From the NCBI RefSeq assembly GCF_021272185.1, contig NZ_JAJSEC010000005.1:186001-250000 (forward strand): 64,000 nucleotides of DNA, in the 5' to 3' direction. Shown piece after piece: positions 38,899 to 48,403 of this stretch (the first letter of the stretch is position 1; every line of letters begins with the position of its first letter). The notes under the pieces are model-generated. The model saw only the letters and a program-made list of their open reading frames with translations. It did no database searches and was not told the DNA's origin. Source of the stretch: Roseivivax sp. GX 12232. Its GTDB lineage: Bacteria > Pseudomonadota > Alphaproteobacteria > Rhodobacterales > Rhodobacteraceae. The position numbers and the translations under genes were made by a program.

Positions 38899-39493
38899 GC
38901 GGTCTCCGATCAAGGGTCCTGGCCCGAGGCTTGCAGGTGCAAACTCGACCCCGGGGATTCCCTATTGATTTACTCGGATATCGCAAGGAAGCGACCGCGA
39001 AGCAAGTGCTGCGGTCCCGCCTTCGCTGTCGCCGCGGCTTGCCGGAGGCGTGTTTCGGGACGCGCACGCACCCAGGCTCTCCTTCCGAGTGCGGCGCATT
39101 ATTTGAATGATCGGAGGAGGTTCTGCCGGAGAGGCAGCGCCACCCGGTCTTATGGATTATGACACCCGCCTGGTCTTGCCCTCGTCCCTGGTCCGGGATT
39201 CATTCAACAATCCGGACAAGCGGTCTCACCCCGGAACCTGAACCGGATCAGGTGAGGCCCTCCGGTAGGCTGGCGGTTCGCGACGGTGCCTCGAACTGGA
39301 GGAATAAACGGGGCTCAGGTCAGCTGGCACGGCGTGAAATCCCCCGCTGAAACCGCGCCGCAAGGCCGGCTCTCTCCAAATGCGCGGTGATCGAGACCGA
39401 CGCCGCCATCCTTTTGCCCGAGTTTCGCCCAAACCGGGTCATCCCTCGCGACGGTATTGGGGACCGGTCAAGATTCTGCCCCACCAGCATCGG
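38899..39493. other. Long divergent intergenic region
   Basis: About 595 bases between the siderophore operon (minus) and the glycosidase-like gene (plus). An AT-rich spot (ATTATTTGAATGAT, about 39099-39112) is a candidate iron box. ACCTGA-ACCGGA-TCAGGT, near 39236-39253, is a short hairpin. No gene was recognised on either strand. Confidence 0.5.
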
Positions 39494-41236
39494 ATGTCTA
39501 ATATGACCGCGCTTCCCTTGCCGGCTTCCTTGGACGGCCATGCCGCAACCGGCGCGCATTTCGGCGCCAATATTCTTGCTCCCCGCGCCGCGATGACGGG
39601 CCCGGGCTCTTATGCGGAGGCCATCGAAGAGCTCGGCGTCAGCGCTCTGCGCTATCCGGGCGGCTCCCTGACCGAGGCCTATTTCGACATCGGCGACCCC
39701 GACGCGACCCTCGTCACCGACAACGAGACCGGCGAGGAGATCGACTTCATGCCGATCTCTGACCTGATGGGCTACGCCGCGGCGACCGGACAGCCGGTCA
39801 CCCTGGTCATCCCGACCCGCACCGCGCTGTCCGAGACCGAACTCGACGAGCTCGGCAATCGCCTGCCGGAGATCGACGAGGCGGAACTGCGCGATTTCGT
39901 GCGCGATACCGTGACCGGGGAATACGGGGATGCCACCATCGCCGCCTTCGAGATCGGCAACGAATACTGGGGGGCCGGGCGGATGAACTCGGCCGAATAC
40001 GGCCGCCTGGCCGCCGAGATGACCGAGATCATCGACGACGAGCTCGCGCGCATCGCGGAGGAGACCGGAACGCCGGTCGACACCGACATCATCGTGCAGA
40101 TGGGGCAGAACTACGATCACGCCGATCTCGAGGACGACTATGCCGGGCTTTCCAACGAGGAGATCCTCGCCGACCTCAACGAGACCTACGGGCTCGAGCT
40201 GACGGCCGAGGAGGCCGTCTCGAGCAGCGGCCGGATCAACTGGCAGCTCGTCAACAACGAGATCGTCATCCAGGGGTTCGAGGATGCCGGCGCGCTGGAA
40301 GAGGTCGATGGGGTCACGGCCCACGTCTTCTCCAAGGCCCCGGAGATCGAGAACTCGCGCTACAACGACATCACCCAGATCGAGAACACCTGGCACGAGG
40401 TCGACCCCGACCTCGAAATCCACGTCACCGAGTGGAACCAGAAATCCACGACCGAGGCGCTCGATCGCACCGAGGACTACGGGCTCTACCAGGCGCACGA
40501 GATGCTCAACATGCTCGAGGTCTTCCTCGACACCGGCGTTGATGCCGCCCATGTCTGGCCTCTCATTCAGAACACCCGCAATGCCCTTTCGGGCGAGACC
40601 GAACACGACGACCCGACCGCACCGGGAGAGATGTTCGCGATGATGTCGGAAAGCCTTCCCGGCAAGACCGCCATCGATTTCCTACCCGACGACAGGGAGA
40701 CCGAATATCGCCTGGACGGGATCGACGTGCACGGCTTCACCGATGCCGAGGACATCGTCTTCTACATCGCCTCCACCAGCCGTGTCGAAACCCAGACCAC
40801 CAAGATCGATATCTCCGGGCTGGTCGTCGACCAACAAGCCGTCAGCGCGCGCCAGCTCGGCGTCGCCGAAGGGGACGCTCCGGGGGACACCGACTCCCAA
40901 GCCCGCCTGGAACTCCTGCCGGAGGAAGAGGTGCTCGAAGATGGCGTGATCACCGCAACGCTGGCGCCAGGCGAGATCCTTGAGATCACCCTCTCCGGCG
41001 TCGAGCCCACCGAAGACTTCGCGCCGGTCATGGCCGCCGCCGGCGCTTCGGAAGACCCCTCGCTCTTTGAGGAACTGATGATTGACGATCCCGCCCCTGC
41101 CGAAGTGGTCGAGACAGACCACGGGAGTTCTGAGGGTGGCGATGGCGGCGGCGATGGCGGCGAGGACGGGGCCGATATGGACATCTTCCTCGGCCTCCTT
41201 CCGCTCCTGGTTCTCGGTGGCATCGTGGGGTTCTGA
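39494..41236 (+). CDS. GH-A-clan-like glycoside hydrolase with C-terminal Gly-Asp linker and hydrophobic tail
   Basis: About 580 residues from ATG 39494 (ATG 39503 is also possible). No N-terminal signal peptide. Residues 150-320 carry two motifs spaced as in clan GH-A TIM barrels: EIGNEYWG with candidate acid/base Glu157 and HVTEWNQK with candidate nucleophile Glu313. The C-terminus is a beta-type domain, then a Gly/Asp/Glu linker (EGGDGGGDGGEDG) and a hydrophobic end (IFLGLLPLLVLGGIVGF). The linker and anchor resemble, in reverse order, the N-terminus of the RTX protein at 56468-57508. Leaderless export by a type I system is plausible. The protein is very acidic. Substrate unknown. Confidence 0.7.
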   Translation: MSNMTALPLPASLDGHAATGAHFGANILAPRAAMTGPGSYAEAIEELGVSALRYPGGSLTEAYFDIGDPDATLVTDNETGEEIDFMPISDLMGYAAATGQPVTLVIPTRTALSETELDELGNRLPEIDEAELRDFVRDTVTGEYGDATIAAFEIGNEYWGAGRMNSAEYGRLAAEMTEIIDDELARIAEETGTPVDTDIIVQMGQNYDHADLEDDYAGLSNEEILADLNETYGLELTAEEAVSSSGRINWQLVNNEIVIQGFEDAGALEEVDGVTAHVFSKAPEIENSRYNDITQIENTWHEVDPDLEIHVTEWNQKSTTEALDRTEDYGLYQAHEMLNMLEVFLDTGVDAAHVWPLIQNTRNALSGETEHDDPTAPGEMFAMMSESLPGKTAIDFLPDDRETEYRLDGIDVHGFTDAEDIVFYIASTSRVETQTTKIDISGLVVDQQAVSARQLGVAEGDAPGDTDSQARLELLPEEEVLEDGVITATLAPGEILEITLSGVEPTEDFAPVMAAAGASEDPSLFEELMIDDPAPAEVVETDHGSSEGGDGGGDGGEDGADMDIFLGLLPLLVLGGIVGF

Positions 41237-41368: not shown

Positions 41369-41797
41369 CTACATGAGGCTCACCAGCAGGCGCTCTGCGC
41401 GCAGCAAGTCGCGCGCCTCTTGGCGCAGCTCGATCAGGGCCTCGAGCCGCTCGAAAAGCGCCGCCAGCGCGTGACCGTGGTCGGTGAGGATAGGAATCTC
41501 GCGGACGGTGCCGACATCGCCGAAGTCCGGGTCGAAATAGCCGTCGAAATAGGTCTCGGTGTCGATCGTCTCTTCGACGAGAGCACTCTGCAGGCGCCGC
41601 CGCAGCTCGGCCAGACTGCCATCGAGGTCTGATCGCAGGAGGTCTCCCGTCTCAAGACCGGAGATGCAGCGACGAACAGCGTGAGCGTCGCTGGCCCTGC
41701 TGCCAACATAGGTGGCCTGAAGGCCCTCGGAGAGGGCCCGGGCGTCGCCACAGGCCGCCACAAGGAGGTCCTCGAGGGATGTGTTGATCTGGTTCAT
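41369..41797 (-). CDS. Hypothetical protein in the accessory region
   Basis: 142 residues from ATG 41797 (MNQINTSLEDLLVAACGDAR), preceded by AAAGGA. The protein is soluble, largely helical, with a possible coiled-coil end (LAALFERLEALIELRQEARD). A central acidic aromatic patch (TETYFDGYFDPDFGDVG) is notable. No family is recognised. Its lower GC and the nearby recombinases suggest it is mobile cargo. Confidence 0.6.
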   Translation of the reverse strand: MNQINTSLEDLLVAACGDARALSEGLQATYVGSRASDAHAVRRCISGLETGDLLRSDLDGSLAELRRRLQSALVEETIDTETYFDGYFDPDFGDVGTVREIPILTDHGHALAALFERLEALIELRQEARDLLRAERLLVSLM

Positions 41798-41930
41798 GAT
41801 CGGTCCTTTCCTGGACAAGATCGACGCCATGCCGAACTTTCAGGACCGCGATGAAGCGACCCGTCGATCATTCCTGAGGCCGGTCCAGTGCCCCAGTAGG
41901 GCGCAACCGGCCTTGCCGGGCGGTCGCGCC

Positions 41931-42314
41931 CTACCCCCTTATCCTTGGGTCTTTTTTGCGCGCGCCTGACGCCGAGCTCGCATAGCTCTGCAGAACACCC
42001 CGCATCCGCATCATCATCTGCAGACGTTCATGCATCGATGTCGGGCGCACCGGCTCGAAATCGTAGACATCGCACCCAGGGTACGCAGCGACCGGCACGC
42101 CCAACCGCCCCAGCAAGACGCCCGCGCGCGTTCGGAGCGACCGCCGCCTGTCCCGGTCATTGTCGACACCAAGAAGGTCGATGAATGCGACTTGGTAACC
42201 GGGGCCATAGTGGGCTTGACCGATCAGCCGCAAATGCGGGAGATCCGGGTTCTCTTCGCGCAGCAACAGCTCGACACAGCCGAGCCAGTAGCCGTGATCT
42301 TCGATCCCATCCAT
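41931..42314 (-). CDS. Hypothetical protein in the accessory region
   Basis: 127 residues from ATG 42314 with AAGGAA upstream; a longer frame from 42512 looks non-coding. The protein begins MDGIEDHGYWLGCVELLLRE and later has GYQVAFIDLLGVDNDRDRRR, predicted as a small alpha/beta protein with a basic C-terminus. No family is recognised. Same strand as the 41369 gene, 133 bp upstream of it. Confidence 0.55.
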   Translation of the reverse strand: MDGIEDHGYWLGCVELLLREENPDLPHLRLIGQAHYGPGYQVAFIDLLGVDNDRDRRRSLRTRAGVLLGRLGVPVAAYPGCDVYDFEPVRPTSMHERLQMMMRMRGVLQSYASSASGARKKDPRIRG

Positions 42315-42743
42315 GGCATTTCCTTCGCCAGCCTCTTGATAGGCAGGATGTTGGCCGGCAGAGGCCGCGACGAAACAGAAAACCCGTGCATTCGGAAATC
42401 GGACCTCGAGCTGCCTGTGTTGATGAGATCCTCTCCCGTGAGTGGCTCCAAGTCGAACCGGGAGGATCGTTGCACGTAATGGCGGGTGTCCCGGTGCTCG
42501 AGACGCTCTCATGGCTGGGCACGAGCAGCCGTCAAGACGAGATCAATGACCTGCAGCGGCAACCGCCCTCAAGGTCCAGCAGATGATGGCGATCCTATTC
42601 GGCGAGAACGACGATGAGGACGCCCAATAGGGCACCGCCGGCAAGAGCGGCATCAGCCAAGCTGAAGCCCCATCGCCCTTGGAGAATAGGCGGAGCCACG
42701 ATGTCGCGATATCATAGCCCAGAGACCATTCAGGCAGACCGCC
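42315..42743. other. Spacer with short coding remnant
   Basis: About 430 bases. Positions 42583-42630 on the plus strand read MMAILFGENDDEDAQ and a stop, and look like the C-terminus of a lost gene. The rest has no recognisable gene. Confidence 0.35.
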
Positions 42744-42989
42744 ATGACAGGCTCCAGAAAACCTAACCCTGCCCGCATCGCCGCAGCCTCACAGGCGAAG
42801 ATCGATCCAGCAGAGCTACCGGATGGCGAAGATACGGTCAGGGTAAACGAGTTCACCAGGTTGATGGGTGAGCCCGGCGAAAAGGAGGAGGCCTTCTTCG
42901 CGCGGCGCCGCCAGCTCGGGCTCGGCGTAGGTCTCGATGCGAACGGCGAACTCGTCTGGGCCTCTGATGAGGGCGAGGACGAGGATTAG
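42744..42989 (+). CDS. Small hypothetical protein
   Basis: 81 residues from ATG 42744. It is highly charged: a basic N-terminus (SRKPNPARIAAASQAKID) and an acidic C-terminus (ELVWASDEGEDED). A predicted soluble helix-rich protein with no recognised family. It is convergent with the recombinase operon and may be cargo. No strong ribosome-binding site is obvious. Confidence 0.45.
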   Translation: MTGSRKPNPARIAAASQAKIDPAELPDGEDTVRVNEFTRLMGEPGEKEEAFFARRRQLGLGVGLDANGELVWASDEGEDED

Positions 42990-43006: not shown

Positions 43007-44386
43007 TCACAGGCCGAATTTTGCGGCGATATCGTTGAGTTCCTGCCCGGCTGCGGCGAGCGCCGCCTGCTTTGCCCTGTCGCCGGTGTATTTCTTGCGT
43101 GCCTGTCGCGACGTGTGATCGTTGAGCAGCATCCCGGCCAGGGTCGCCTCTTCACTGATCGCAAAGACCACGTCGTAGACGATGGAGCGGCAGATGTGAG
43201 CCCCTGTCCCGAACTCGGACGACCAGACCTGCGAGACATAGTTCGCAGAGACGAACGAGCCATCGGGGTGTTGGAAGAGCGGCCATTCCTGCTCTTCCGC
43301 CGCGGCGCGCAGGGCATCGAGGTATCTCGGGTCATCATCCTGCAGCAGCCTTGCATCGACGAAATGCTGGACGTCGGGATGCACCGAGCCCGGGTAGGTC
43401 TCGCGCCCGAGTCGGTGGCGTGTCTTGCGCAGTTTGTAGTCGCGCAGGCGGTAGCGACCCTCGGTCCAGACCAGATCCCTGCCGAACCGCAGATCGTGCC
43501 ATTCCCGCCGGAGCGGTGTAAGCGGCGGCACCGCGATGGCGAGGGCCCGGTTGCGCTGGATGAGGCGCTGCGCGGGGTTGGGGTACCGCGCAACCGCGTC
43601 CAGGATCGCCTGAGCCCGAGGATGAATGGTCGTGATGTCGATCGCGGCAAGCGCGGCAAATTTCCGAGATGTCTCTTCGGCTTCCCGCTCCCGCAGTTTC
43701 CGGAGCAACCGGCCCATCTCTTTGGAAAGGCGCTTCGGATAGGCACGGGAGAAGCGGAGGAAATCCCGGAGATCGCTCATCGTCGCAACGACGGTCGCCA
43801 AGCTGAGGGGTGACCCTCTGTTGGAGATCCGTGTCGTCTCGTAGGTGTAGAAGTCTCTCAGCGACGGGATGTCGAAGTCGAGGGCTGACCCTGCCTGCTG
43901 GAGGAACCACCCGTACTGGCAGATCTTGCGTGTCATGCGTTCGTAGATATCCGGCGCCAGCTTGATCTCGCCGTCGTCGATCCGATCTCGGATGTGGGCC
44001 AGATGATGGCGCCAGTCGTCCGGGAGATCCTCGAGGTGGAGCGAGATCGACCGGGTGTACTTGCGGCGGGTCTCTCGAGGGACACCCCTGAAATCCTCGC
44101 AGGCGGAGAGCGCGTTCTGCGCCTTCCTCAGGACGTCCAGCGGGGCAGCGTCTGGCCCGTCGGTGTTCTCCATCGCGGTGATCGCGAGCGCGAGAGATGC
44201 CGCGCCCTCGTTTAAGCGCGCCCAGACCTGGCAGTCGCTTTGCCCGAGGTTCGTGCAACCATGTTCGGTCATGAACTCGATCAGGCTGTCGAGCGCCTGC
44301 AACTCTGCCAGCGGCATGGCGAGCAGGACAGGAGAGGTCGCATGCGGTTGCCATTGTGGCTTCGCGAGGATCACGTGGCGGGTCAT
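43007..44386 (-). CDS. Tyrosine recombinase (second of a coupled pair)
   Basis: 459 residues from ATG 44386, overlapping the upstream recombinase gene by ATGA. The C-terminal catalytic domain is complete: first Arg in TPLRREWHDLRFGRDL, Lys in YKLRKTRHRL, His397-x-x-Arg400 in AHICRSIVYD, His424 in NDHTSRQARKKY, nucleophile Tyr433. The N-terminal 240 residues are a helical core-binding domain. As the smaller member of a pair it may act with the 611-residue recombinase in a heteromeric complex. Confidence 0.85.
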   Translation of the reverse strand: MTRHVILAKPQWQPHATSPVLLAMPLAELQALDSLIEFMTEHGCTNLGQSDCQVWARLNEGAASLALAITAMENTDGPDAAPLDVLRKAQNALSACEDFRGVPRETRRKYTRSISLHLEDLPDDWRHHLAHIRDRIDDGEIKLAPDIYERMTRKICQYGWFLQQAGSALDFDIPSLRDFYTYETTRISNRGSPLSLATVVATMSDLRDFLRFSRAYPKRLSKEMGRLLRKLREREAEETSRKFAALAAIDITTIHPRAQAILDAVARYPNPAQRLIQRNRALAIAVPPLTPLRREWHDLRFGRDLVWTEGRYRLRDYKLRKTRHRLGRETYPGSVHPDVQHFVDARLLQDDDPRYLDALRAAAEEQEWPLFQHPDGSFVSANYVSQVWSSEFGTGAHICRSIVYDVVFAISEEATLAGMLLNDHTSRQARKKYTGDRAKQAALAAAGQELNDIAAKFGL

Positions 44387-46218
44387 AGTCCGGACATGGC
44401 CTCCGCGAGGAGGTCCTGCACCTCCTCGAGCTTCTGACGCTTGTCGATCCACCCATAATAGGTGTCGAGCACTCCGACCGAACAGCCAAGGTAGGCGGCG
44501 GCCCTGCCCCGGTTGCTCCAGGACCGCGCGAGCAGCAGGGTTGCGAAACCGTGGCGGAAGTTGTGCGGGAACATCGGCAGGCCGATCTCCGCGCTGCTCC
44601 GGATCATCCAATTATAGAACGTGGCTCCGCCGAGTGGACGCGCCGATTTCTCTGCGACGAACAGATGCGTGGCTCTTGCGAATTTTTCCTTTTCACAGAA
44701 CTCCGGGTTGGCGTAGTCGAAAAGAGGTCGAGCAGTTGTCAGATACCAGTCGAGCACCTCGTAGCCGCAATACTTGTCGTCCCGGACGTGGATCGGTGGC
44801 ATTTCAACATACCCGCCTTTCATGTCTTTCCGTGCGAGCCGCAGCTCGAATAGCTTCTTGCCGCCCGATGTCTTGCGGAAGAAATTCTGTTGGGCGCCCT
44901 CGCATTGCGCGGCCAGAGCACTGCCTTTGCGCAGGCCGGCGCCGCGGATCTCAAGAGTAGAAAAGGCGGCACAGGTCGCGAGGCGGCGCGCGGTGCGGAG
45001 TTTCTCCTTCGGAATTGGTTTGTCTGTCGCGAGGATGTCCTGAGCCCGTTCCTGGTAGAGCACATGCTGGCGCAGGAAAGTGCGCACATCGCTGGGATTG
45101 TGGATCAGGCGCTCGCAGAATTCCTGGTTTTTCGGCGACATCTTTTCCCCAGCAGCATGGCCCTCCTTCAGAGCCGGGTTCTTTTTCAGAGACCGGCGCC
45201 ATCCCTTCATCTTGAAACCGTTCGCCTCGCCGATCTGCGCGACAATGCGCACGTAATCAGCCGCGGTCCGGAGGCTGAACCCTGCGTCTGTCTCCGCCCG
45301 GTCGATCAGGGATCGAATGGCCTCGATCCGGTTCTTTTTCTTGAAAAGCGGGCTGAGGCTATCCAGGGACGCCAGATCCACCTGCCCGCTCTCCTTTGCG
45401 GCCCGGGCAAGGGTCACAAAGGCGGCGTGGTAGGTCTGGGCTGTCTGCTCGTTGAAATTCTCGGTGCAGCTCTCGGAAACATCATCATAGGTGCTGTGAT
45501 CGAAGCGCGCGACCTTGACCATTTCCGCGATCTTCCTGCGGATCTCCTTGGGAACGACACTGCGGGACGGCGGCAGGAGATAGGCCGTATCGTAATCACT
45601 CGGCAGATGACCCGCGATCTGCGGAAAGCGCTTGAGCCGATCAAGCGCCTTGAGTGCGGTCATGGAGCTGCCGCGCTCGTGGACCGGCAGGGCCTCCAAG
45701 AAAGCCGGAACCTGATCCGGTGTCAGATCGAGCGGGTCGAGTTCGGCCGTCCGCGCCCGATCGGAAAGGGATCGGATCGCGCCGAAGGTCCCGGGATGCA
45801 CCGGCCCGTGATCTTTCGACAGGCTTTCAAGCAGCGAAAGGAATGGGGTCCAGGCATCAACCCGCGCCCGCACGGCCTTCTGGGCCTCGACCAGGCCCAG
45901 CGTGGTCCGGATCCGGCGGTGAACCACCTCTCGCCACTTGGCATAGGCTGTCCTGCTCGACCAGAAAGCCCGCGCAGCGCCAGGCAGGGGCTGGGCACCA
46001 AGAATTTTCGGGTGCGGAAAATTCGCCTCGAACCACGTCACGAGATCCACGCCGGCGCCATCGAGGGCCGACAGGGGCGCAGAGAAGTATTCGCCCAGGC
46101 GCGCGACGCGTGTGCGCTCTGTGCCTTCCGGGGTTTCGTCGAAGACGGTCTGCATCGTGTTGGGCGATGGCACTGCCGCGGCCATCGCGGCTTTAGAGGC
46201 GGTGGAGAAAACTCCCAT
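44383..46218 (-). CDS. Large tyrosine recombinase (first of a coupled pair)
   Basis: 611 residues from ATG 46218 after AAGGAA; the frame is open further upstream but non-coding. The catalytic set is visible: Arg in EIRGAGLRKGSALAAQ, His552-x-x-Arg555-His556 in FPHNFRHGFATLLL, nucleophile Tyr587 or Tyr588 in DTYYGWID. The usual LGH histidine is Cys579 (LGCSVGVLDTYYG). The long N-terminal 350 residues are helical, larger than in XerC/D, as in TnpB-type transposition recombinases. Coupled to the second recombinase. Confidence 0.85.
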   Translation of the reverse strand: MGVFSTASKAAMAAAVPSPNTMQTVFDETPEGTERTRVARLGEYFSAPLSALDGAGVDLVTWFEANFPHPKILGAQPLPGAARAFWSSRTAYAKWREVVHRRIRTTLGLVEAQKAVRARVDAWTPFLSLLESLSKDHGPVHPGTFGAIRSLSDRARTAELDPLDLTPDQVPAFLEALPVHERGSSMTALKALDRLKRFPQIAGHLPSDYDTAYLLPPSRSVVPKEIRRKIAEMVKVARFDHSTYDDVSESCTENFNEQTAQTYHAAFVTLARAAKESGQVDLASLDSLSPLFKKKNRIEAIRSLIDRAETDAGFSLRTAADYVRIVAQIGEANGFKMKGWRRSLKKNPALKEGHAAGEKMSPKNQEFCERLIHNPSDVRTFLRQHVLYQERAQDILATDKPIPKEKLRTARRLATCAAFSTLEIRGAGLRKGSALAAQCEGAQQNFFRKTSGGKKLFELRLARKDMKGGYVEMPPIHVRDDKYCGYEVLDWYLTTARPLFDYANPEFCEKEKFARATHLFVAEKSARPLGGATFYNWMIRSSAEIGLPMFPHNFRHGFATLLLARSWSNRGRAAAYLGCSVGVLDTYYGWIDKRQKLEEVQDLLAEAMSGL

Positions 46219-46277
46219 TCGATGTTCCTTGCTGTCTGGAGAGGTGCCGCCCTCGCGGTCGGCCGTGATCATTGGTG

Positions 46278-46394
46278 TCAGTCGGCGTCGGGTTCGGAGC
46301 CCGGGCCGCGCCAAGGCAGGATGCGAACCGACAGGGCAGTCATGGCCGAAGGGATCATCGGGTGCGGCGGCGGCGTCGAAGTCGTGGCGACCAT
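46278..46394 (-). CDS. Possible 38-residue small ORF between recombination genes
   Basis: ATG 46394 has AAAGGA at good distance. The frame encodes MVATTSTPPPHPMIPSAMTA and ends SEPDAD. It lies in the 279-bp gap between the excisionase-like and recombinase genes. It could be a leader peptide or chance; no similarity is recognised. Confidence 0.25.
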   Translation of the reverse strand: MVATTSTPPPHPMIPSAMTALSVRILPWRGPGSEPDAD

Positions 46395-46497
46395 TGGAAA
46401 TCCTTTCGTCCGGCTTGTTAGGGAGATTGGTCGCGTCGCGTGCATCCGAAGGGAAAATGTGCACTCGAGGCGAAATTTATGACGACTTAGCGGTGCC

Positions 46498-47292
46498 TTA
46501 TGCTCCCGAGAGTTTCGCCTCGGGCGGGTTCCTGTGCAGGCCATCGCCTCTCTGTGCATCGGAGGCGGATCGTGTGCAGGAACGCGGCGGACGCGACCCG
46601 CCGGCAGCCTGCGCCGCTGCACTGGCAAAGAGGCCGCCGCGGTTGTCTGTCTTAGGGACAGTTGGCTGATCAGCTGCCGGTTGCGCCCGCTGTGATGTCG
46701 CGCTTGTGGAGGCGACATTTTCGCCGCGGCCCGAAAGCCAGTGGGCCACATCTGATACGATGAAGCGCGTGCGCCCTTCTGTGATTACGCGCGCCGGCAG
46801 GTTGGTCGGATCGGCAAGCAGGACGTCGATCCGGGATTGCGGGACATCGAAGTGTCGCGCCAAGCGTGAGGCGGGCATGGCATGTCCCGCAACCGGTTTG
46901 AGAGGCGCGAAGCCGTTCTTCGGGCTCGCGAACATCTGCGCGACCTGACCCTTTAGCAGAAGATGCCTATGGGGGCCAAAGGCATAGAGTGGCGGGAAAC
47001 CGTTGTTGTGGGTTCGCAGTCGGCTCAGCAGCCTCTCCGCTGAGGTGCCGAGCCAGCCTGCCACCGTGGTGACCCTCACCAGGCCAGCGCCCAGGATCGC
47101 GTCGTCCGCATTACTTTGAGGCGACAGGCCCAGGAGGTGCTTGTAGACCCGCAGGATCGGGTATTTGGGCCCGAGAGGCTCGATACCGAAGCGGGCGAGG
47201 AAGGGGCCCACTTCGTTGCGCGATAGGGTCGACCAGTCGTGCAGGTCCTTGAGGGTGGCGGCATGGAATCTGGTGAAAGGCAACACGGGCAT
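46498..47292 (-). CDS. Tandem winged-HTH (excisionase-like) DNA-binding protein
   Basis: 264 residues from ATG 47292; GTG 47286 is better spaced from AGGAG and may be the real start. Two modules share an excisionase/MerR-type pattern of an HTH followed by a basic strand and a short helix. Module 2 reads TTVAGWLGTSAERLLSRLRT and HLLLKGQVAQMF; module 3 reads MPASRLARHFDVPQSRIDVL and TRFIVSDVAHWLSG. An N-terminal segment (RFHAATLKDLHDWSTLSRNE) may be a third copy. The C-terminus is low-complexity and basic. Position upstream of two tyrosine recombinases suggests a directionality or accessory factor. No named family was recognised. Confidence 0.6.
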   Translation of the reverse strand: MPVLPFTRFHAATLKDLHDWSTLSRNEVGPFLARFGIEPLGPKYPILRVYKHLLGLSPQSNADDAILGAGLVRVTTVAGWLGTSAERLLSRLRTHNNGFPPLYAFGPHRHLLLKGQVAQMFASPKNGFAPLKPVAGHAMPASRLARHFDVPQSRIDVLLADPTNLPARVITEGRTRFIVSDVAHWLSGRGENVASTSATSQRAQPAADQPTVPKTDNRGGLFASAAAQAAGGSRPPRSCTRSASDAQRGDGLHRNPPEAKLSGA

Positions 47293-47900
47293 CTCCTGTT
47301 TCCCAGGACATGGTTTCCGCGCGGACGAGACGGAAATGACATCTCTCGACCCAGGTTTGCCGACAACACGAACCTCGGCTCACTTGGTGCCCCTCCGGTC
47401 CTCCTCAGGGTGGGCATTGTGCGCCATGACGGCCGAAAATCGCGAAGCCTTCGATTGCTGAGAGGGCGGTGATCTTGATGGTATCGATGCTGGTCCCGGC
47501 CTCCAGGATCCGGTGAGCTGCGGACCCTCACCGGTCGCGAGCGTGGCGCTCCGCGCCGAAGGCAACGACGGCGTGTCCTGGAGAAGCGTTCGTCATCCGG
47601 CCGACCGCTGTATTGGGGGTATGGCCGGACGTCACCACCACCCCGGTTCCAGGTGCGCGCTAAATGCACCACTGTGACGGGACCCACGTGGACCGGATCT
47701 GGAATCACGGCACCTGCGACCTCTTCAATATCTTCTGGCATCCAGGTGTGCTGTCCCGCACTGGCCGGCCGGATGTCGGACTTTTCCGCTTGCCCGACGA
47801 TGACAGGCCGGAGAACCACCGGGATAGTGCTTGGCCGGCGCGTTCTTTTGCCGACTAATCGGAATTGGGCCAAACATCCGGTTCATACCGGAGGCCAGAC
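47293..47900. other. Intergenic region upstream of the recombination module
   Basis: About 610 bases. Open frames on both strands here (for example minus 47293-47873) have no convincing protein features. It should contain the promoter of the module and possibly a recombination site, but no repeat pair could be established by eye. Confidence 0.4.
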
Positions 47901-48403
47901 GTGAGCTCTCTCCATCTTCCCAAGCAGGCTGACACGGAACCCGTGTGTCATAAGATAGACGCAGCGGCGCGCCGGCGTGTGAGCGGCCGAAGCCTGCGGG
48001 CTTTCCTGGCCATCTGCGATCGTTACGGCATCCGCACGTGAGACCGCGTGGCTCTTCTCGGCGAGCCATCGAACGCGAGCTATTACGCATGGCTGAAAAA
48101 GGCCCGTGCAAACGCGCCCTTGTCGCTGTCGCTCGACACTCTGACCCGCATCTCGGGCATTCTCGGCATTCACAAGCGGCTGGGAATTCTTTCCCGGTCG
48201 TTGCCGAGTCGATGACATGGCTCAAAGGGACGCATTGCGGCGAGATCTTCGGCGGGCAGGCCGCGATCGAACTGATGGTCGAGGGCGGCCTCGACGGCAT
48301 CCTCAATGTGCGGCGCTACCTCGACACCTGGCCCTCCGGACGGCCTGGCGGCCCCGGCGAGGGGAAAACCGACGGAGGCATCGGCCATAAGTCACGGCTC
48401 TGA
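47901..48403 (+). pseudogene. Decayed Xre/MbcA/ParS-type (DUF2384) antitoxin gene
   Basis: From GTG 47901 the frame encodes RRRVSGRSLRAFLAICDRYG, an in-frame TGA at about 48039, then DRVALLGEPSNASYYAWLKK and LSLDTLTRISGILGIHKRLG. The reading then shifts frame (near 48180-48210) to WLKGTHCGEIFGGQAAIELM and GLDGILNVRRYLDTW. Put together this is a full DUF2384 antitoxin: Xre-like HTH followed by the FGG-x-x-A-L-E-x-M / V-R-x-Y-L-D-A domain. One stop and one frameshift inactivate it. The usual RES-domain toxin gene was not found downstream. Confidence 0.75.

Follow-up and report, generated by a model that had tools for sequence, protein, structure and literature searches.

The window analysed here is a stretch of 64,000 nucleotides from Roseivivax sp. 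GX 12232 (contig NZ_JAJSEC010000005.1, positions 186,001 to 250,000), and three intact genes on its minus strand are the subject of this study: a helix-turn-helix (HTH) gene followed by two tyrosine recombinase (YR) genes, YR1 and YR2.

46498..47292, minus strand: HTH gene (P0003), predicted protein of 264 aa with three tandem excisionase-like winged helix-turn-helix (wHTH) units and a disordered tail

44383..46218, minus strand: YR1 (P0002), predicted tyrosine recombinase of 611 aa, including a long N-terminal part

43007..44386, minus strand: YR2 (P0001), predicted 459-aa divergent tyrosine recombinase

The HTH gene may alternatively start at a GTG 6 nt further in. The open reading frame (ORF) of YR1 spans 44383-46464, with a likely start at 46218 that gives the 611-aa product, and its stop shares the letters ATGA with the start of YR2.

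YR1 is a tyrosine recombinase by its R-K-HxxR-Y set and its fold. Residues R430, K467, H552, R555, H556 and Y588 were invariant in an alignment of 21 sequences, the profile matched the structures of XerA and XerD (8.1e-9 and 3.3e-8), and the NCBIfam matches were Xer-type models only. For YR2, the window protein gave no Pfam recombinase match, Phage_int_SAM_1 was found in 2 of 21 relatives, and no recombinase was among the matches of its profile against the PDB. R293, K321 and R400 were invariant and H397 and Y433 nearly so in 38 sequences, with the first His replaced by Thr in 4 of the 21 rows of alignment A3 (by eye), and the AlphaFold model (pLDDT 83) matched Cre (probability 1.00, E 1.7e-4, TM 0.53 by target length). 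By these residues and this fold YR2 is likewise a tyrosine recombinase, an identity that sequence profiles alone missed. The two profiles matched each other (hhalign, 87.7%, 3.4e-6), and YR1 and YR2 are distant paralogues.

The AlphaFold model of the HTH protein had a pLDDT of 88-97 over residues 11-190 and contained three HTH-wing units, at residues 12-54, 71-122 and 139-189; of the five models computed, two were of low quality (63-64). The family profile matched BldC (3.1e-7), Pukovnik Xis (0.005) and AlpA (0.06), and HTH_17 was found in 12 and AlpA in 3 of 22 relatives, the window member having neither. The protein is modelled as a tandem wHTH protein of the BldC/RdfS/Xis type, and its family, position and fold suggest that the array could act as a directionality factor. 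In passages of a published account, RdfS, Xis and BldC are single-unit proteins that line up head to tail on DNA (PMC11963761). The fold of each unit is like that of RdfS of Mesorhizobium integrative and conjugative elements, phage Xis and BldC, whereas here a single polypeptide joins three units (two in the shortest relatives). An initial annotation, made from the letters of the window, had claimed two different recombinases with catalytic residues and an ATGA overlap, and this was borne out by intact genes with residues invariant or nearly so. Its second claim, an upstream gene with repeated excisionase-like wHTH modules, agreed with the modelled structure of the 264-residue protein as to the kind of unit and their presence in tandem, whereas the number of units is not constant in the family.

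A scan of GTDB species genomes yielded 49 named loci, of which 48 were titled as Rhodobacteraceae-type organisms, the exception (L108) being a metagenome-assembled genome labelled Alteromonadaceae. The order HTH-YR1-YR2 on one strand was kept in 38 of the 49 loci, so the association of the three genes is above chance. Eight of the 11 misses were cut by a contig end (L100, L101, L109, L113, L114, L128, L131, L135), and a contig end alone was insufficient as an explanation for L098, L099 and L116. The set contains near-duplicate loci (L117/L118, L095/L097, L089/L091), and it overlaps an earlier set of 23 loci, where a YR2 relative and an HTH relative were each present in 22. In eleven loci from many genera (L087-L097), YR1 was 71-73% identical to that of the window. 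The three proteins co-vary: over 34 loci the distance correlations were 0.987 for YR1-YR2, 0.945 for YR1-HTH and 0.951 for YR2-HTH, and none of 999 permutations was as high.

In a sample of the order, YR1 matches reached 190 bits in 37 of 390 genomes, the window's included (43 matches listed). Counting all 256 of the 390 genomes with YR1 matches as carriers was rejected, because many were short matches to the catalytic region (25-60 bits). In a phylum-level sample of 398 genomes, YR2 had matches in 4, each of them from the window's family, and tblastn against 72,556 plasmids, pAQU1 included, gave 8 records for YR1 and 5 for YR2, all Rhodobacterales by name. Most of the database copies encountered bear the label hypothetical protein. 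No description of the module was found in the open-access literature that was searched, subscription papers not being covered, and the passages checked of a paper on Sulfitobacter mobile elements (PMC13386836) do not describe it. HTH-YR1-YR2 is a conserved module, so far unnamed.

The left boundary of the trio opened an island of about 36 kb with one common end point in Pseudooceanicola pacificus, P. marinus, Allosediminivita pacifica and Roseivivax sediminis (loci L097, L095, L089 and L091). Its identity was 95.2-99.9% across these four species of three genera, the Allosediminivita and Pseudooceanicola copies being 99.9% identical, and such near-identity between genera points to recent transfer. 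In one copy 4.55 kb was missing, and two had a further 0.95 kb close to their right end. The island genes resembled copper, other metal handling and cytochrome genes, as judged by eye from the sequence. In Mesobacterium pallidum, a fourth genus with the right end of the island, the trio and the same right end (89% over 526 bp) enclosed 5.9 kb and no cargo. The shared island, taken with a cargo-less form having the same right end, argues for an island-forming mobile module of Rhodobacterales, and we consider it likely that an integrative element of this order, one that forms islands, has the trio as its recombination core. What the data show outright is gene content and order, co-variation, catalytic residues, folds and shared island boundaries. 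It is quite improbable that the trio is instead a resolvase or maintenance module, serving plasmid dimer resolution or an inversion switch, which rides on islands and plasmids and is not their engine. The eight plasmid records with YR1 relatives, the Cre-like fold of YR2 and the failure to find an empty site would fit such a role, whereas large contigs of genome assemblies carry many of the copies, the trio stands exactly at the left boundary of both the shared island and the cargo-less form, and an excisionase-like partner is atypical of resolvases.

A fourth gene, G4, probably belongs to the system, to judge from its sequence and position. Its product of about 765 aa matched YR1 over the N-terminal half only (YR1 columns 7-320; 98.3%, 1.6e-14, hhalign), and because the match is confined to that half, G4 appears to be recombinase-like without a catalytic domain. 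Relatives of G4 were defined by direct phmmer and profile comparison. In the window genome it is an open gene outside the window (G000:C34:260916-263180), 49% identical, 27.6 kb upstream of the trio and on the same strand. A DNA search matched G4 in 8 of 9 close-relative genomes, and wherever close relatives had both on one contig, G4 lay upstream and shared the strand of the trio. The gap between them was 75 bp in L087, L094, L097 and L095 (the last with a G4 fragment), about 90 bp in L098, 3.4 kb in L089, 16.1 kb in L096 and 21.5 kb in L093. At more distant loci G4 was adjacent or nearby in L022, L036, L038, L039, L040 and L107, and downstream in L024 and L033. L024 is Thioclava plasmid p5, where the trio and G4 have a SAVED/nucleotidyltransferase pair on one side and an SNF2-type gene on the other, so that anti-phage cargo may be present.

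The initial annotation had read the trio as a transposon-like or genomic-island mobility system in an alphaproteobacterium. The neighbourhood search supports this reading, with a conserved three-gene module that recurs in the same order at most loci and is placed at the left end of an island common to several genera; one correction is that the non-catalytic G4 probably belongs to the system as well.

The variable gap between G4 and the trio (75 bp to 27.6 kb), with constant order and strand in the close relatives that have both on one contig, underlies another proposal, in which the obligatory fused excisionase array would act next to a two-enzyme recombinase as a ruler-like clamp, and the interval between G4 and the trio would be a built-in docking site that gathers foreign DNA, as cassettes gather beside an integron integrase, which would make these islands a separate class. 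Because the inserts showed no copy of the T-rich site described below on the side facing G4, the proposal is kept as a minor one and is considered rather unlikely.

Two features precede the HTH gene in the window.

47332..47337, minus strand: T-rich stretch ATTTCC, at which relatives in other settings start to align; presumed left end or region of crossover

47290..47312, minus strand: inverted repeat with 9-bp arms, one mismatch and a 5-nt loop, covering the ribosome site and the HTH start

Between copies in dissimilar settings, similarity is mostly confined to the trio, running from about 20-45 bp before the HTH start to near the YR2 stop; for the window, blastn similarity to relatives begins at 47315-47336. 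Some pairs share 1.3-1.6 kb more on the right. A T-rich stretch stands just before the HTH gene in 30 of the 49 loci, where 500 shuffles gave a mean of 3.9 and a maximum of 10, a statistic in which related copies are not independent. The inverted repeat over the ribosome site, often after the T-rich stretch, was found in 22 of the 49 (mean 4.8 and maximum 10 in 100 shuffles). The right flanks open with a similar 20-bp stretch (by eye), which may reflect a target preference. Three other candidates were rejected. A fixed left-end word, TTTYCCGT, occurred in only 3 of the 49 loci; insertion into transcription terminators was not the rule, a strong hairpin before the T-rich stretch being present in few loci (mean z -0.36, 37 loci); and terminal inverted repeats that were plausible by eye were no better than shuffles, of which 467, 289 and 312 of 500 scored as high.

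Around the trio, the window holds three small genes with homologues beside other copies of the module.

41931..42512, minus strand: orf193, accessory gene, 127 aa from its likely start; its homologue lies 0.14-0.26 kb inside the right boundary of the related islands

42744..42989, plus strand: orf81, small accessory ORF; its homologue adjoins the module at L022 (phmmer 3.6e-11)

41369..41830, minus strand: orf153, accessory ORF; homologues adjoin the modules at L115 and L028 (phmmer 2.3e-13 and 5.7e-8)

Further orf193 homologues adjoin trios at other loci, and orf193 had no meaningful match in Pfam, NCBIfam or PHROG. Between the HTH gene and YR1 (46230-46390 in the window), several relatives carry an extra ORF of 170-330 aa resembling the N-terminal part of YR1; about 360 bp of it, present in several relatives, is missing from the window. 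On the plus strand, a 618-aa gene (39380-41236) stands beside the supposed right end, and its relatives in three Roseivivax genomes (48-51% identity) stand in other settings. On the other side, between the trio and a lacI-type gene, lies what we take to be a decayed antitoxin gene of the Xre/MbcA/ParS type (48038-48403). The same genome contains a second, unrelated-looking recombinase match (G000:C33:2711-3220; 60 bits, 559-aa frame).

Several results count against a mobile, island-forming role of the trio. With respect to the ends, similarity in some pairs extends over 55-200 bp ahead of the HTH gene, so that the left end has no base-exact position; no significant inverted repeat was found between left and right ends in three elements with uncertain end positions; a repeat of the left-end motif that could serve as right end was looked for, with only chance-like matches in the stretches searched; and no empty site was found in flank searches of 60 relatives, in plasmids or at the 618-aa gene in the three Roseivivax genomes. 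With respect to the proteins, the usual third catalytic His of YR1 is kept in 1 of 21 rows, with C, D or N in the others (counted by eye), Foldseek with the whole HTH chain gave no match at E <= 0.001, and the matches of single units to BldC, RdfS and Pukovnik Xis were weak (E 1.8-3.3). G4 was within the fetched flanks of only 6 of the 49 loci, or 7 with a fragment, and it may be dispensable, not universal, or often far away. It is also possible, though doubtful, that the copy in the window is a relic, an intact-looking trio that is no longer mobile. The distance of G4, the loss between the HTH gene and YR1 relative to several relatives, and a right end that could not be placed would all agree with this, against which stand three open genes whose catalytic residues are kept, as they are in divergent relatives.

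For the trio as the core of an integrative element, the following model is in our view the most likely one; action of the two enzymes as a heteromer, the setting of direction, self-regulation, the involvement of G4 and the mobility of the element are what we infer in it. YR1 and YR2 would form a heteromeric tyrosine recombinase acting on unlike core sites at the two ends of the element. The HTH protein would bind and bend the left-end DNA beside its own promoter, favouring one direction of the reaction, and may also control its own operon; RdfS, Xis and BldC perform work of this sort as single units (PMC11963761). Cargo would fill the interval from the YR2 stop to a small gene of the orf193 family at the right end, and G4, corresponding to the N-terminal part of a recombinase, could be a non-catalytic architectural partner supplied from nearby.

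Multi-recombinase elements such as the strand-biased circularizing integrative elements (SE), GInts, RIT elements and Tn554 are poorly understood, and the module, if the reading is true, would be the counterpart of such elements in one of the commonest marine bacterial groups (Roseobacter). Its auxiliary protein has a fold that hints at function, unlike Srap, TnpC or GinD. Furthermore, the trio can name carriers of metal-resistance islands that standard domain annotation overlooks, as YR2 and the window HTH protein have no Pfam family match.

The gamma-mobile-trio (GmtX, GmtY, GmtZ) also consists of three linked island genes, with one recombinase. In Tn554, compared here by description only, TnpC follows the recombinases and is not known as a wHTH array. 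Tn554 (tnpABC) is nevertheless similar in having two recombinases and an auxiliary protein, and RIT elements in having adjacent recombinase genes with short overlaps and in being frequent in alpha- and betaproteobacteria, as described in passages of PMC3414803. According to the same source, ritA, ritB and ritC are three recombinases, whereas here there are two and an HTH array. No catalytic domain was matched in G4, which lies outside any adjacent recombinase trio, so there are no three adjacent recombinase genes. The initial annotation had matched a trio with an Xis-array protein as third member to no known system, and we agree: with two catalytic recombinases in a row the module is not a RIT element, by its order it is not an SE, and the open literature yielded no description.

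The closest likeness is to SEs and GInts. SEs carry intA-tfp-intB-srap and are reported from Gammaproteobacteria only, and Tfp of SEs and GinC of GInts are recombinase-like without a catalytic domain or motif, according to passages of the SE papers (PMC9345347, PMC10214605). Like SEs, the module has two catalytic recombinases (one large), a non-catalytic recombinase-like protein (G4 here, tfp in SEs), a small auxiliary protein, gene overlaps close to one end and a T-rich border. It differs in gene order, which is (G4)-HTH-YR1-YR2 here (the SE order was viewed on pAQU1, with gene names assigned from the SE paper), in having an Xis-like array where SEs have Srap, and in its host group, Rhodobacterales; SEs have imperfect terminal inverted repeats, which here were no better than shuffles in three elements with uncertain ends. 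With GInts (ginABCD), as described in parts of PMC5385486, it has in common that the recombination genes occupy the 5' end and are followed by cargo that varies in size, and that there are three recombinase-type proteins if G4 is counted. By that description it is set apart in that the small protein gene precedes the recombinases, whereas GinD is last and is a helix-loop-helix protein of low identity to TnpC.

It is unlikely, in our judgement, that the trio is a far-diverged SE or GInt branch with reshuffled gene order. Parts of the same kinds, if G4 is counted, would speak for such an origin, as would the T-rich left border, which may be compared with the SE-6945 target in a passage of PMC9345347, and cargo behind the recombination genes, as passages of PMC5385486 describe for GInts. 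The order G4-HTH-YR1-YR2 in place of intA-tfp-intB-srap or ginABCD, and an Xis-like array in place of Srap or GinD as described, speak against it, and so do plasmid tblastn matches solely to Rhodobacterales records with pAQU1 among the subjects. In hhalign, four profiles against four SE proteins of pAQU1 reached at most 1.7% probability, a weak argument, as the SE proteins miss each other too. Published accounts differ, in the passages concerned, on GInts in Alphaproteobacteria: Bardaji et al. (PMC5385486) reported gin homologues there, while Idola et al. found no tfp-srap or ginC-ginD blocks. In composition the trio recalls SEs and GInts, and its gene order and small partner set it apart from both.

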